Shown: in pieces, positions 31,573 through 36,232 of the stretch
Layout: every line of letters begins with the position of its first letter
Position numbering within the stretch: position 1 is the stretch's first letter
Assembly: GCF_000425105.1 (NCBI RefSeq)
Contig: NZ_AULD01000005.1
Span: forward strand, 558,001-622,000
Direction of reading: 5' to 3'
DNA length: 64,000 nt
DNA from: Agrococcus lahaulensis DSM 17612
GTDB taxonomy: Bacteria; Actinomycetota; Actinomycetes; Actinomycetales; Microbacteriaceae
Notes under the pieces: model-generated
What the model saw: only the letters and a program-made list of their open reading frames with translations
The model's database searches: none
What the model was told of the DNA's origin: nothing
Program-made: the position numbers and the translations under genes

Positions 31573-32889
31573 ATGACGCAGACCGCCATCATCGTCGGTG
31601 CCGGACTCGGCGGCCTCGCGGCCGCGCGTGCGCTCGAGAGCGCCGGTTGGCACGTGCGGGTGCTCGAGGCCGCGCCCGAGGTGCGGGCCATGGGCGCGGG
31701 CATCAGCATCACGAGCAACGGGCTCGAGGCGCTCGATGAGCTCGGGGTGGGGGATGCGGTGCGCGAGCGGGCGGTCAAGGCACGACCCGAGGGTGTCTTC
31801 ACCGACCAGGGCTCGCGCCTGCAGCAGGGCTTCGCGCACGAGTCGAGCGCCGTGCACGCGATCCACCGCGGCACGCTGCTCGAGATCCTGCGCGACGGTC
31901 GGGAGGTCGAGACGGGCATGCGCGTCGTCGGCGCCGCCGACGGGTCGAGCGGCCGCCCGAGCGTCACGATCGAGCACGGCGCCGCCGACCCCGACTCGCG
32001 CGACGCGCGCGCCGAGCGGCAGGCGCGCGCCGACCGCTCGCTCGGCATCAAGGTGGGCCGTCGGCTGCAGCGGGCGCTCGAGCCGGGCGACGAGCCGATC
32101 GACCGCCGCGCCGAGCGGCGCGCGACGAAGCGGCAGGTGCGGTCCGCCGCCGAGAGCCGCTTCGAGACGCTCGAGGCCGACCTCATCGTCGGGGCCGACG
32201 GCATCGACTCCGCGGTGCGGAAGGCGCTCTGGCCGAAGGCCGCGACCGACTACTCCGGCGCGACCTGCTGGTACGGGGTGCTGCAAGCGGAGTCCGACTC
32301 GCCCTCGGGCGCCCGCCAGTACCTCGGGCGCGGCGCCGAGTTCGGGATGGTGCCGATCGACGGCGGCCGCGTCTACTGGTGGGGCATGGCGCACGCCCGG
32401 ATGGGCCGGCGCGCGCCCGACGAGCTCGAGGCCGCGCGCGAGCGCTTCGACACCTGGGCGCCCGAGGTGCGCGACCACATCGCCGCGACGCCGCAGGCGT
32501 CGATCACGCGCCGCGACCTGCACTGGCTCGCGACGCCGCTGAAGTCGTTCCACCGCCCGGGGGTCGTGCTGCTCGGCGACGCGGCGCACGCGATGCTCCC
32601 GACCCTCGGGCAAGGCGGCAACCTGACGCTCGAGGACGCCGCGACCCTCGGCATCCTGCTCGCCGACCACCCGCTCGAGCAGGCCCTCCGCGCCTACGAC
32701 AGCGAGCGCATCCGCCGCACCGATCGCTTCAAGCAGCTCTCGCACCGGCTCGCCCACACGACGACCGAGACGCGCAGCCCGGTGCTCGTCGCGGCCCGCA
32801 ACGGCGCCTACAACCTCATGCCCGCGATGCTCGCCGAGATCGCCGGCGACTGGATGCTGCACTGGCGCAGCCCGCGCGCGAAGCGCTGA
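31573..32889 (+). CDS. FAD-dependent class A monooxygenase with charged insert
   Basis: A 438-residue flavoprotein hydroxylase. VGAGLGGLAAARAL at 8-21 binds FAD, LIVGADGIDSAVR near 204-216 is the DG motif and LLGDAAHAMLPTLGQGGN near 334-351 the second FAD motif. Between residues about 135 and 196 lies an extra Arg/Asp/Ala-rich stretch (DSRDARAERQARADRS) absent from ordinary family members of about 380 residues. The flanking motifs are intact, so it is an in-frame insertion rather than a frameshift. Substrate unknown, probably aromatic. Confidence 0.87.
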   Translation: MTQTAIIVGAGLGGLAAARALESAGWHVRVLEAAPEVRAMGAGISITSNGLEALDELGVGDAVRERAVKARPEGVFTDQGSRLQQGFAHESSAVHAIHRGTLLEILRDGREVETGMRVVGAADGSSGRPSVTIEHGAADPDSRDARAERQARADRSLGIKVGRRLQRALEPGDEPIDRRAERRATKRQVRSAAESRFETLEADLIVGADGIDSAVRKALWPKAATDYSGATCWYGVLQAESDSPSGARQYLGRGAEFGMVPIDGGRVYWWGMAHARMGRRAPDELEAARERFDTWAPEVRDHIAATPQASITRRDLHWLATPLKSFHRPGVVLLGDAAHAMLPTLGQGGNLTLEDAATLGILLADHPLEQALRAYDSERIRRTDRFKQLSHRLAHTTTETRSPVLVAARNGAYNLMPAMLAEIAGDWMLHWRSPRAKR

Positions 32890-32939
32890 CGCGGGACGCG
32901 TCCGGCGACACGCCCGAGGGCGACATGGGTAGTTCTCCC

Positions 32940-32945
32940 CATAGT
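32940..32945 (+). promoter_or_regulatory. Possible -10 box of the candidate RNA gene
   Basis: CATAGT lies 31 bases before the first long stem. No good -35 is visible, so the call is weak. Confidence 0.3.
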
Positions 32946-32951
32946 CCTCTC

Positions 32952-33233
32952 CCAGGTACGGGCGCTACCGTTTGGCGTAGCCCGGCTGGGGCCCCGCAAG
33001 GGGAAATCGGGCTACGAGACAGGGATCCGGCGCATCGCGCCGGAGTGCAAGGGCCTCAGGGACGGGGCGTTGCACGACTCGGCGAGAGCCGGTCGTCCAC
33101 ATCACAGAGCGGGGCTCGACTGGGGTCGGGCCCCCTCTCTCGTTCTCGGGCTCATCGCAGTTTGCAGCCGTTCCCGACGCCCGGGACGGGCGTCGGCGCT
33201 GGGGTCGCGGCGACGACCCGAAAGGGTCGTCGC
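32952..33233 (+). ncRNA. Candidate structured non-coding RNA, about 280 nt
   Basis: The 345 bases between the monooxygenase and NUDIX genes hold no credible ORF but a chain of stems: 32977-32984/33008-33015 (8 bp) enclosing CCCC-GCAA-GGGG; 33027-33043 (7 bp, 3-base loop); 33045-33050/33070-33075 (6 bp); 33075-33095 (CGAC/GTCG and CGGC-GAGA-GCCG); 33111-33134 (10 bp); 33175-33195 (8 bp); and a terminal 33210-33233. Three GNRA loops appear only when read on the plus strand, which sets the strand. It is not RNase P, tmRNA or SRP RNA by their conserved cores; a 6S/Ms1-like RNA is possible. The 5' end is a guess. Confidence 0.5.
33210..33233. terminator. Bidirectional terminator hairpin
   Basis: A perfect 10-bp stem GCGACGACCC with a GAAA loop. 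It ends the candidate RNA on the plus strand and lies directly after the NUDIX stop on the minus strand. Confidence 0.75.
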
Positions 33234-33234
33234 T

Positions 33235-33648
33235 CTAGAGCTCCACCGCGCGTTCAGCGAGCAGCATCGGGAAGATGAGCTCGCGGTTGAGCGGCGCCTC
33301 CGCCTCGTCGTCGATGCCGATCGCCGGGTCGATCCACCGCACCGCCTCGATCTCGGCGCGCGCGTGCGGCTCGATCGCGTCGCGGGTGCGGAACACGCTC
33401 GCTCGCAGCGCGAACCCCGCCTCGTTCGCGGCGCGCGTCTCGAACTCGCCCATCGGCTCGATGCGGTCGAGGCCGATCTCGACGCCGAGCTCCTCGAGCA
33501 CCTCGCGCACGCCGCACTCCGCCGCGCTCTCGCCGGGCTCGGGCTTGCCGCCCGGCAGCATCCACGCGGAGGTGCCCCGCTTCCGCACCGTCAGCACCGC
33601 GCCGTCGGCGCGCTCGAAGCAGATCGCCGAGACCGTGATGACGCCCAT
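33235..33648 (-). CDS. NUDIX hydrolase
   Basis: A 137-residue NUDIX protein cleaving nucleoside-diphosphate-X compounds. The box GGKPEPGESAAECGVREV continues LEELGV (about residues 33-56), matching Gx5Ex7REUxEExGU with all catalytic glutamates. The N terminus (ITVSAICFERADGAVLTVRKR) resembles MutT-like housecleaning enzymes; substrate open. ATG 33648 has a leaderless -10 box. Confidence 0.92.
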   Translation of the reverse strand: MGVITVSAICFERADGAVLTVRKRGTSAWMLPGGKPEPGESAAECGVREVLEELGVEIGLDRIEPMGEFETRAANEAGFALRASVFRTRDAIEPHARAEIEAVRWIDPAIGIDDEAEAPLNRELIFPMLLAERAVEL

Positions 33649-33670: not shown

Positions 33671-34153
33671 CTACGGGCGGCGGTAGGCGCTGCCGTCAGC
33701 CTCGCGCTCGAGGAGGCGGGCGTCGACGAGGTCGCGGCGCAGCGTCGCGGGGTCGTCGGTGATCGCGGCGAGCCGCTCGGTCACCGCCGCCTCGGAGGCG
33801 CCGTCCCCGGCGGGCAGCGCGCGGTCGATCGCCCACGCGAGCAGCGCCGCGCGATCGCCGGGGCGCTTCGGCCACACCGCGATGCGACCCTCGCGCACGA
33901 ACCGGTCGATCCCGCTCGCCGCGGGGCGATGGCCGAGCAGCGGCGTGAACGGATCGGCGGGCTCGACGGCGCCGTCGACGACGGTGACGAGCCCTGCGCG
34001 CTCGAGGGCCCGGACCTCGCGCTGCGCCCGCGCCGTGAGCGCCGAGACCTGCACGGGGGAGCGGTTCGCCGCCCCGAGCACGATGCGAGCCCACGCGAGC
34101 CGTCGGCCCTCATCGGCGAGCGTCGCGGCGATCGGCCTCCACGCATCTGTCAT
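33671..34153 (-). CDS. DUF2087 domain protein
   Basis: A 160-residue protein with an N-terminal helix-turn-helix-like region (LTARAQREVRALERAGLV near residues 39-56) and a C-terminal DUF2087 domain (GIDRFVREGRIAVWPKRPGDR near 82-102, TLRRDLVDARLLEREADGSAYRR at the end). DUF2087 often sits with ArsR/MarR-like wHTH regulators, so a transcription-regulator role is plausible but unproven. ATG 34153 follows a -10-like CAGCAT by 6 bases. Confidence 0.8.
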   Translation of the reverse strand: MTDAWRPIAATLADEGRRLAWARIVLGAANRSPVQVSALTARAQREVRALERAGLVTVVDGAVEPADPFTPLLGHRPAASGIDRFVREGRIAVWPKRPGDRAALLAWAIDRALPAGDGASEAAVTERLAAITDDPATLRRDLVDARLLEREADGSAYRRP

Positions 34154-34165: not shown

Positions 34166-34270
34166 GCAGGGGACTTCTCCCCATCGCATCTTCAGCGTCG
34201 CGCTCCTACGGTGGAGGCGTCGGCACCGATCGGGGCCGGCGGTCGAAGACTTCGAGGGAGTGATCATCGC

Positions 34271-34558
34271 ATGAGCGATTTCGGCGCATCGTATGCAGAG
34301 ATGGAGTCCGTGGCGGGCAAGCTCGACACGGGCAAGGAGGACATCTCGGGTGTCCTGAAGGACCTGAAGGGCCAGGTCGACACCCTGCTGGGTGAGGACT
34401 TCAAGACGCAGCACGCGTCGGGCAAGTTCGGTGAGGGCTACGAGGAGCTCACGTCGGGTCTCGAGAAGGCGATCGAGGGCATCTCCGAGATGGGCGAGGC
34501 GCTGCGCGGCATGATGCAGGCGATCCAGTCGCTCGACGAGCAGCTCGCCGGCAGCTGA
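34271..34558 (+). CDS. WXG100-like small helical protein, first gene of the cassette
   Basis: A 95-residue acidic protein with two predicted helices and a central turn: GASYAEMESVAGKLDTGKED then LGEDFKTQHASGKFGEGYEE and LQSLDEQ-like ends. Length and helix-turn-helix layout are those of WXG100 (EsxA/EsxB) proteins. The Trp-X-Gly turn is missing; the region reads EDFKTQHASGKF. It would be secreted as a dimer by a type VII system if the family assignment holds. ATG 34271 follows GAGGGAG at 34253-34259. A strong terminator follows, so expression may exceed that of the genes downstream. Confidence 0.7.
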   Translation: MSDFGASYAEMESVAGKLDTGKEDISGVLKDLKGQVDTLLGEDFKTQHASGKFGEGYEELTSGLEKAIEGISEMGEALRGMMQAIQSLDEQLAGS

Positions 34559-34570
34559 TCGTGCCGCTGT

Positions 34571-34602
34571 AGCCGGCGGGCGCGCTGCTGCGCCCGCCGG
34601 CT
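34571..34602 (+). terminator. Terminator after the WXG100-like gene
   Basis: A perfect 13-bp stem AGCCGGCGGGCGC and its complement with loop GCTGCT, 13 bases after the stop. It separates the small protein from the operon behind it and may allow partial read-through. Confidence 0.75.
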
Positions 34603-34640
34603 CTTCGCATCCCATCCCAATCCGACTCGGAAGGATCACC

Positions 34641-34946
34641 GTGGACGTCATGCTCGACCTCGAGCGCCTCAAGCAGGCTCGCACGAGCCTCGGCAGCGCT
34701 GTCGAGAGCTTCAAGGGCGCGAGCTCGTTCAACAACGACCTCGAGCGCGCCGTCGCCGAGCCGGACGACCGGAGCTCACTCCGTCGCAAGGTGAGCGACT
34801 TCGAGTCCGACTGGAACGGTCGCCGCGGCGACCTCACCGAGATGCTCGAGGAGATCCACAAGGGCATCGACACCATCATCACCGAGTGGGATCGGTGGGA
34901 CACCGAGACCGCCGCAGAGCTCGAGCCGACGGGAACCGTCCGATGA
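34641..34946 (+). CDS. WXG100-like protein with W-X-G turn
   Basis: A 101-residue, mostly helical protein. A D-W-N-G-R-R segment near residues 57-62 sits in the middle between two helices, as the WXG turn of ESX substrates does. Conserved acidic residues follow in the second helix. It starts with GTG after AAGGA (ATG 34650 is an in-frame alternative) and overlaps the next gene by 4 bases. It probably partners the LXG-like protein behind it. Confidence 0.65.
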   Translation: MDVMLDLERLKQARTSLGSAVESFKGASSFNNDLERAVAEPDDRSSLRRKVSDFESDWNGRRGDLTEMLEEIHKGIDTIITEWDRWDTETAAELEPTGTVR

Positions 34947-36232
34947 CCTACCGCTCACCGACGGCCGGCTACGCGCTGCGCCCGCTCGCGGGCAACCCCG
35001 ACAAGATCGAGACCGACGCCGCGAGCTTCATCCGCCTCGCCGACGACCTCGACGCGCTCTCGAGCGAGCTGCAGGCGATCGGCACCTCCGACGTGCACAG
35101 GTCGAAGGGCACGGATGCGCTCGCCGAGCTCGCGCTCAAGGCCAAGCCCGAGGTCGACAAGGCTGAGCAGCGCTACCGCTCCACCGCCGAGGTGCTGCAG
35201 GCGTACGCCCCGCAGCTGCGCAAGGCGAAGGACTGGATCGACGATCACCAGGAGTCGATCGAGCAGGCCGAGCGGGATTGGGAGGCCGCCGTCGAGGCGG
35301 CGGAGGACGCGCGCCGTGAGCAGCGCAGCCTCACGCGGGTGATGCCCTGGGAGGACGACCCGACCGACGCCGAGCTCACCGCCGCCCAGGGCGCGGTGTC
35401 GAGCGCCGAGGGTGCCGAGTCGACGGCCAAGGGGATCCGCGACGAGCGCTGGGAGTCGTTCGAGACCGTCTTCTCCACCTGGTCGGACGCCTACGACGAC
35501 GCGGTCGCCGGCGTCGACGGCGCGATCGAGGCGGCGGGCAACAACGACGGCTTCTGGGAGGGCCTCGCCGACTTCCTCGACATCCTCGGCTGGGTCGTGA
35601 CGGGGCTCGCGATCATCGCGCTGTTCGTCTCGGGGCCGATCGGCCTCGCGCTCATGGCGCTCGTGGTCGTCGGATCGCTCGTGCTGCTCGCGGGCAAGAT
35701 CGCGCAGTACGCGACGGGCCGCACGACCTGGCAGGACGTCGCGCTCGCCGGCTTCGCGCTCGTCACGCTCGGCGCGGGCGGCGCGATCGCTCGGGTCGCG
35801 AGCAAGGGCGCGCCGACGCTCAGCGGCGCGATCGGCGCCACTCGCGCCGCGGCGCGACCGGCGATCCGCTCGGGCATGCCCGGCCCGACCCTCAACCCGT
35901 TCACGTGGCACCGGCCGCTCTCGAACCGCGTGAGCGCGTGGGGGCAGGCACGCGCCGCGACGCCGCGGCCCGGCATGATCGTCAACGGCTTCGACTCGAT
36001 CCGCTTCGGCGGCACCGAGACGGGGCGCACGCTGCAGTTCCTCAACACCGCTCGCAGCAACCTCCGCCAGTACCCTGGCGTCGTGAACGGCATCGACGAC
36101 ATGATCGCGCGAGCGACGCCGAGCGTCGCCTCGCAGATCGGGCAGTTCTCGCTCTGGAGCGTCGGCACCGGGCTCGACCTCGGCGACAAGTTCGGCCTCG
36201 TGCCGAAGTCGGACCCGCTCGTGCGCCTGTGA
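34943..36232 (+). CDS. Putative type VII-secreted LXG-like protein with central membrane helices
   Basis: A 429-residue protein. Residues 1-110 resemble the putative T7SS-secretion domain (AGNPDKIETDAASFIRLADD then helical Ala/Glu-rich repeats), 110-205 are coiled coil, and two to three hydrophobic helices span about 215-285 (GWVVTGLAIIALFVSGPIG, ALMALVVVGSLVLLAGKI). The C-terminal 140 residues (WHRPLSNRVSAWGQ, RFGGTETGRTLQFLN) match no toxin I know. It is co-translated with its neighbours on both sides. It could be a polymorphic effector whose immunity gene follows. Confidence 0.6.
   Translation: MTYRSPTAGYALRPLAGNPDKIETDAASFIRLADDLDALSSELQAIGTSDVHRSKGTDALAELALKAKPEVDKAEQRYRSTAEVLQAYAPQLRKAKDWIDDHQESIEQAERDWEAAVEAAEDARREQRSLTRVMPWEDDPTDAELTAAQGAVSSAEGAESTAKGIRDERWESFETVFSTWSDAYDDAVAGVDGAIEAAGNNDGFWEGLADFLDILGWVVTGLAIIALFVSGPIGLALMALVVVGSLVLLAGKIAQYATGRTTWQDVALAGFALVTLGAGGAIARVASKGAPTLSGAIGATRAAARPAIRSGMPGPTLNPFTWHRPLSNRVSAWGQARAATPRPGMIVNGFDSIRFGGTETGRTLQFLNTARSNLRQYPGVVNGIDDMIARATPSVASQIGQFSLWSVGTGLDLGDKFGLVPKSDPLVRL

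Follow-up and report, generated by a model that had tools for sequence, protein, structure and literature searches.

The 345-nt gap between a FAD-dependent monooxygenase gene and a convergent NUDIX hydrolase gene of Agrococcus lahaulensis DSM 17612 (Microbacteriaceae; genome size 2.68 Mb) very probably holds a previously undescribed small RNA gene, so far seen only in Agrococcus. The gene is assigned to 32976-33143 on the plus strand of the 64,000-nt stretch of DNA that was analysed (hereafter the window), and its predicted transcript is about 165 nt long. Comparison of related genomes shows a conserved place, paired substitutions, a fixed promoter architecture and an operator in common with WXG100 (esx-type) genes, and on this comparative evidence the RNA is real. 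The best overall explanation, to which we give about even credence, is a free-standing small RNA gene with a promoter of its own; it may descend from an esx transcription unit and, more tentatively, might act as a decoy.

Identity and distribution of the RNA

DNA comparison among 24 Agrococcus genomes split the gap in two: one part recurs in the same gap of relatives and the other is present in many copies per genome. The first part contains the RNA, which BLAST together with the operator placed in 15 of the 24 genomes (this locus, 12 aligned relatives and two more divergent sequences that were reached via the operator). Across these 15 genomes the RNAs average 74% identity overall, and both neighbours are kept at all 15 loci, namely the monooxygenase gene upstream (31573-32889, plus strand; Pfam FAD_binding_3) and the NUDIX gene convergent and downstream (33235-33648, minus strand; Pfam NUDIX). 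The RNA is missing from the other nine genomes, two of which are incomplete (78% and 86%), yet WXG100 genes score above cut-off in all 24. Where the RNA is missing, the monooxygenase and NUDIX genes are directly adjacent in six genomes and stand in another context in three.

We built a covariance model from these 15 sequences. It scores them at 105-183 bits (141 bits for the present one, itself part of the model), and it adds no strong case among the other nine genomes, with 24-37 bits in five and nothing at an E-value of 0.001 in four. Outside of Agrococcus, a scan of 349 family genomes with this model gave nothing above 30.3 bits. When an exact core pattern of the RNA was searched against a collection of 84,980 genomes, from which the window's own genome may be excluded, it returned eight records, all eight of them from Agrococcus, including A. 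pavilionensis, A. baldri and A. sediminis. Among 398 family genomes the core pattern matched seven Agrococcus genomes and one other (G097), in which the loop is longer and the match is taken as chance.

The first-pass annotation, made from the sequence alone, had seen no conserved core of RNase P, tmRNA or SRP RNA and had offered a new structured RNA family as one option. This option is supported by the conserved place, conserved promoter and paired substitutions. No Rfam family matched at its gathering score in the window. The best sub-threshold Rfam match was to ftsZ-DE (RF02985), which resembles the RNA in having two hairpins and aligned to 33075-33139 with an E-value of 0.025; its 23.8 bits stand against a cut-off of 72.2, and the loci of 14 relatives, searched in a set that also included two loci of another RNA, gave nothing at an E-value of 0.5 or below. 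A tmRNA or tRNA identity was rejected, ARAGORN having found none. Also rejected was a 3′ untranslated region of the monooxygenase mRNA, given the RNA's own promoter and the distance of about 0.6-0.9 kb between monooxygenase and RNA in five genomes (G017, G003, G012, G009 and G019). In the open-access literature we recognised no relevant report on RNAs of Agrococcus or of type VII systems.

Promoter, operator and a probable type VII secretion regulon

The RNA promoter consists of the palindrome ATGGGNAGTTCTCCCCAT followed 23 nt later by a TANNNT box, a spacing found at all 15 RNA loci. Here the operator is the 18-bp ATGGGTAGTTCTCCCCAT (32925-32942, plus strand), the -10-like box is TACCGT (32966-32971, plus strand), and transcription is predicted to start at about 32977-32979. 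A simple scan of 32850-33300 gave no sigma-70 consensus promoter. With about 31 nt between the centre of the operator and the TANNNT box downstream of it, an activator bound next to the -35 region would be its natural reading.

WXG100 genes are preceded by the same motif, again with a TANNNT box at a fixed distance. For example, a second copy in the window (34169-34184, plus strand), with TACGGT 22 nt downstream, precedes a WXG100 gene (34271-34558, plus strand; Pfam PF06013, E-value 4.5e-10), so that this neighbour is under the same operator. In its exact form the operator has 43 sites in 23 of the 24 Agrococcus genomes, two of them in this genome, as compared to none for a reversed-pattern control. 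Fifteen of these sites precede the RNA, and WXG100 or WXG100_2 genes follow 19 of the remaining 28. Among 199 family genomes the exact form has 47 sites (two for the reversed control), spread over 24 genomes from 12 of the 85 genera; most genera (73 of 85) thus lack the exact form, and the exact pattern undercounts operators, since variants were seen in EccC-like gene clusters. WXG100 genes lie downstream of 17 of 40 operator sites in other genera, and 32 of the 68 non-RNA sites are not before a WXG100 gene. Gene classes at the sites were sorted by eye, after a duplicate site (L067, a copy of L045) had been dropped from the counts. Pfam runs on the gene groups at an E-value of 0.01 or below gave WXG100 in 14 and 17 ORFs and WXG100_2 in 10 and 14, some of these under the curated cut-off, and ten single proteins at operator sites were run as well.

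A TANNNT box lies 22-23 nt past the operator at 59 of 83 distinct sites, which are partly homologous to one another and are therefore not independent cases; no other offset occurs at more than three sites, and 24 sites lack the spacing. By group, it is found at 15 of 15 RNA sites, 22 of 28 other Agrococcus sites and 22 of 40 sites in other genera. Relaxed operators with the same 22-nt spacing also occur within EccC-like gene clusters in four of five genomes read, this one included, where they stand before WXG100 genes among other places. EccC-like proteins score in all 24 Agrococcus genomes and above the family cut-off in three; the weak scores are not proof, since nine of 14 control genomes also score, none of them above cut-off.

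Since WXG100 genes share this palindrome and its spacing, membership of the RNA in a type VII secretion regulon is very probable, and we are highly confident that it is expressed together with the WXG100 genes. We found no report of a palindromic operator before WXG100 genes in the open-access literature, and the palindromic motif given in the accessible part of one report, TAC-N6-GTA, is unlike the Agrococcus operator (PMC3388012). The data presented herein describe a palindromic operator that is found upstream of WXG100 genes in Microbacteriaceae and is strictly spaced from the promoter, and they provide type VII secretion beyond mycobacteria with a candidate RNA component.

A regulator of the operator was not found. 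One possible candidate is a DUF2087 protein whose gene (33674-34153, minus strand) is divergent from the WXG100 gene, with the second operator in between. This gene was also found in the loci of three of 12 RNA-bearing relatives and six of the nine genomes without the RNA; against the candidate, it is not near the RNA in the other nine of the 12 relatives. Downstream of that operator, 34271-36232 encodes the WXG100 protein, then a 101-aa protein and a protein of about 430 aa with a hydrophobic stretch, an arrangement that resembles a small operon for type VII substrates and is separate from the EccC-like gene, found on contig C4.

Conserved structure of the RNA

All of the stems listed in the first-pass annotation are present in the sequence. 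It had joined them into one RNA spanning 32890-33234, of which a structured RNA at about 32976-33143 survives. The fold of 32976-33143 is better than that of shuffled sequences, with z-scores of -4.59 on the plus strand and -4.89 on the minus strand, so that fold energy gives no strand preference. The plus strand, earlier argued from three GNRA loops, is upheld by the promoter, by the order of the stems and by conservation; a GAAA loop, presumably one of the three, belongs to the neighbouring repeat.

At its 5′ end the RNA carries a nearly invariant stem-loop, P1/P2 (32976-33016, plus strand), in which P1 pairs 32976-32985 with 33007-33016 and P2 is CCCC-GCAA-GGGG at 32992-33003. Here 25 of 32 occupied columns are invariant among the 15 sequences and none of the modelled pairs shows changes on both sides; with so little variation, P1/P2 are putative helices. 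Only the pair flanking the modelled P1 on its outside changes in a paired way, being A-U in ten sequences, G-C in three, C-G in one and an A.G mismatch in one. This invariance beyond what pairing would require suggests a sequence-specific role.

The remaining stems, all on the plus strand, vary in a paired manner. Changes on both sides affect four of six pairs in the P3 hairpin (33026-33044), four of six in the P5 hairpin (33076-33094) and two of six in the P4 hairpin (33045-33075), where they were counted on ten sequences since the other five (the G000 group: G000, G010, G015, G017 and G003) are gapped. The GC-rich 10-bp terminator-like stem, GGGGCTCGAC-TGGG-GTCGGGCCCC at 33111-33134, is paired in 100% of its cells and has such changes in two of ten pairs; its T run is weak, and the scan of 32850-33300 gave no consensus terminator. 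As an aside, CGACC-N3-6-GGTCG hairpins are over-represented in the window (12 found as compared to 3.0 expected), and they are perhaps the usual terminator type here.

In total, 12 of the 37 named pairs have changes on both sides as compared to 5.4 in shuffles, and none of 500 shuffles reached 12; standard pairs fill 97.6% of the cells of these pairs as compared to 92.5% in shuffles, tests that are inflated by the relatedness of the sequences. Slid versions of the structure have only 0-5 such pairs, a comparison that is biased towards the named structure because it was derived from these same sequences. The pairs were counted on a MAFFT alignment made without structure, and the model-fitted alignment gave the same 12. 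RNAalifold by itself returned a partly different set of helices; the named structure follows single-sequence folds, which are not all alike. The paired substitutions imply selection on structure. The first-pass annotation had named stems without paired substitutions in relatives as the result that would speak against an RNA; such substitutions were found for P3, P4, P5 and the terminator stem, and the comparison was uninformative for P1/P2. A linker around GACAGGG is also conserved, with six of 11 columns invariant. A kissing interaction between CAUG loops was considered but abandoned, as the G000 group lacks CAUG in P4.

A dispersed repeat in the same gap

The many-copy part of the gap is a copy of a dispersed Agrococcus repeat of about 80 nt (33174-33253, plus strand) that does not belong to the RNA. 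It consists of hairpin A (33174-33196), a short linker, hairpin B (33210-33233) with a GNRA-type loop, and a AGCTCCANCGC end, and its 3′ part lies in the stop region of the NUDIX gene. The last two stems of the first-pass annotation, at 33175-33195 and 33210-33233, are therefore those of the repeat. Accordingly, the transcript of about 280 nt that it predicted is too long, and its terminator at 33210-33233 is not that of the RNA, which has its own terminator-like stem upstream.

By pattern, the repeat occurs in 19 of the 24 genomes, with ten copies here, of which one is in the window, and up to 21 elsewhere; a backwards control gave at most one per strand in any genome and five in all across the 24. 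The two closest relatives, G010 and G015, have no copy in this gap. Among 26 aligned copies, two partial copies in L006 having been dropped beforehand, 12 of 21 pairs have changes on both sides; one pair, for example, is G-C in 13 copies and C-G in 13. For 15 of 24 copies, a mechanically called ORF of at least 100 aa on the opposite strand stops no more than about 25 nt from the right end, like the NUDIX gene.

REP/BIME repeats are dispersed and palindromic, are often found at gene 3′ ends and are sometimes in tandem. The Agrococcus repeat resembles them on each of these points; it was seen often at gene 3′ ends and sometimes in tandem (with a 79-nt period in G003), and further loci are L034:3681-3918 and L021:989-1558. 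It differs from them in lacking an associated Y1/RAYT transposase domain, there being no Y1 transposase domain at an E-value of 0.001 or below in any of the 24 genomes.

Likeness to esx genes

Among 22 weaker matches of the covariance model, classed by their position against WXG100 gene matches, 13 lie at WXG100 gene 3′ ends or terminators, six correspond to the terminator of the RNA itself, read on the opposite strand, and three lie elsewhere. We also searched a terminator-free profile of the 3′ half against 757 kb (197 loci, with the RNA masked). Its best match, at 13.2 bits, was a WXG100 3′ coding end in sense orientation, as compared to 11.7 bits for the next non-esx match and 11.1 bits for a backwards control. 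It is the P4 segment, as it occurs in relatives, that shows this likeness. Five of the eight distinct matches of at least 8 bits were to esx genes, in which this set is enriched because the loci were largely chosen around operators. In a 246-kb set, the top eight matches of this profile and the top nine of the whole terminator-free profile were esx by position; these matches are singly weak (E-values of 0.013-0.86) and count as about one, since esx genes are homologous to each other. Furthermore, 27 of 30 columns match between the esx end and the divergent G019 RNA.

When the RNAs were scanned pairwise against 1588 DNA chunks, the esx end came out best for only two of the 15 (G019 and G009), some unrelated place scored equally or higher for the other 13, and two unrelated places exceeded it when scores were summed over all 15. 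For the whole terminator-free profile on the 757 kb, the top score, 10.7 bits, went to a hairpin resembling P1 in another genus (L107), and esx came second at 8.8 bits. The likeness of the terminators carries little weight, given how common CGACC..GGTCG hairpins are in the window. Leaders of esx genes often have a hairpin near the place of P1, singly not significant (z-scores of -2.3 to +0.1). The case for esx is lifted by its being the sole gene family that was expected beforehand from the operator.

Weighing these comparisons, we consider the chances evenly balanced that the RNA arose from an esx transcription unit. It would then have retained the operator and promoter, a hairpin in leader position, an esx-like terminator and, as P4, a sense piece of the 3′ coding end, and would have lost the reading frame. 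A more specific scenario, in which the RNA was born from a duplicated esx gene whose coding part shrank, and is made exactly when esx mRNAs are so as to tune them by mimicry, is rather unlikely.

Possible modes of action

The RNA is presumably made together with WXG100 proteins. It might act in trans as a regulatory RNA within the regulon, in the simplest case by competing as a decoy with esx mRNAs for some factor, a proposal that we make tentatively and would not call likely. Such a factor could be a nuclease, an RNA-binding protein or the regulator itself, and it would be engaged through the invariant 5′ stem-loop and P4. A decoy for a factor that binds esx mRNA would make use of the shared parts in the simplest way. 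With an esx origin, the RNA may be an instance of a protein gene turned into a regulatory RNA for the system to which that gene belonged. Antisense pairing by way of the P4 likeness is impossible, since P4 has the same sense as the esx mRNA.

Pairing through other routes is a plausible rival, at a probability well short of even. The RNA would be an ordinary trans-acting antisense RNA of the regulon, its P4 or P5 loops or the GACAGGG linker would pair with mRNAs elsewhere, and its likeness to esx would be chance. This reading accounts equally for the conservation and promoter evidence, it would make use of the conserved linker, and it suits the mixed outcome of the esx controls. However, the RNA and the adjacent WXG100 leader gave no pairing signal in the seven of 15 genomes compared (z-scores of -1.66 to +0.31, from energies that contain no accessibility term), and the G000 group has a different P4 loop.

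A decaying, functionless esx pseudogene would account for the esx-like parts as well. We consider such a relic improbable, since the palindrome, the -10 box and the 5′ stem-loop persist among RNAs that have diverged in overall sequence, and the paired substitutions indicate that structure is under selection.

Still less probable is a 6S/Ms1-type RNA that binds protein and acts on RNA polymerase, which was the first-pass annotation's other option. RNAs of the 6S type form a long rod with a central bulge, and Ms1 is about 300 nt long in mycobacteria. In Streptomyces, as described in the available part of the source, Ms1 is a 6S-like RNA of about 230 nt that is flanked by HAD hydrolase and oxidoreductase genes and binds the RNA polymerase core (PMC9130861). 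By that partial description the Agrococcus RNA resembles Ms1 in being an intergenic noncoding RNA of Actinobacteria with a conserved place, and differs in its separate hairpins, its length of about 165 nt and its FAD monooxygenase and NUDIX neighbours (PMC9130861). The highly conserved stem-loop would fit a protein-binding RNA, but no 6S-type Rfam family matched, the several hairpins (P1-P5 and the terminator) do not make a rod, the synteny differs and the RNA has been found only in Agrococcus. No HAD hydrolase is among its neighbours; on one side, the FAD monooxygenase could be called an oxidoreductase.

We likewise give very little weight to an mRNA for a small protein, such as MDEVMHGISVLSYFARWVRP in G014: ATG frames of at least 12 codons, preceded by an SD-like GAGGGAG, are closed inside only four of the 15 RNAs (G014, G001 and G002, with 16-27 codons, and G004, with 15), but the other 11 keep neither frame nor stop, several running to the RNA end, the G000 group has an ATG frame of at least 12 codons only in G015 and G003, both open, no reading frame is kept and the stems covary.

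For the preferred reading, a regulatory RNA within a type VII regulon, the nearest functional parallel is Mcr7 of Mycobacterium tuberculosis, which the available part of the report describes as a noncoding RNA of the PhoP regulon, a regulon that also controls the type VII system ESX-1 (PMC4038636). According to the same partial source, Mcr7 acts on the Tat system (PMC4038636). The two RNAs are likened by description only; bacterium and regulator differ, and the Agrococcus RNA may itself be related to esx.

A second RNA under the same operator

In two Agrococcus genomes the operator and its -10 box, with the usual spacing, stand directly before another structured RNA, which is about 95 nt long and unrelated to the first (L060:1501-1640 in G018 and L168:106-245 in G023). 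A third genome, G002, has a 24-nt match only. Both of these two genomes among the 24 lack the first RNA, and the presence of another RNA under the same promoter where the first is absent suggests that a place for an RNA may be reserved in the regulon.
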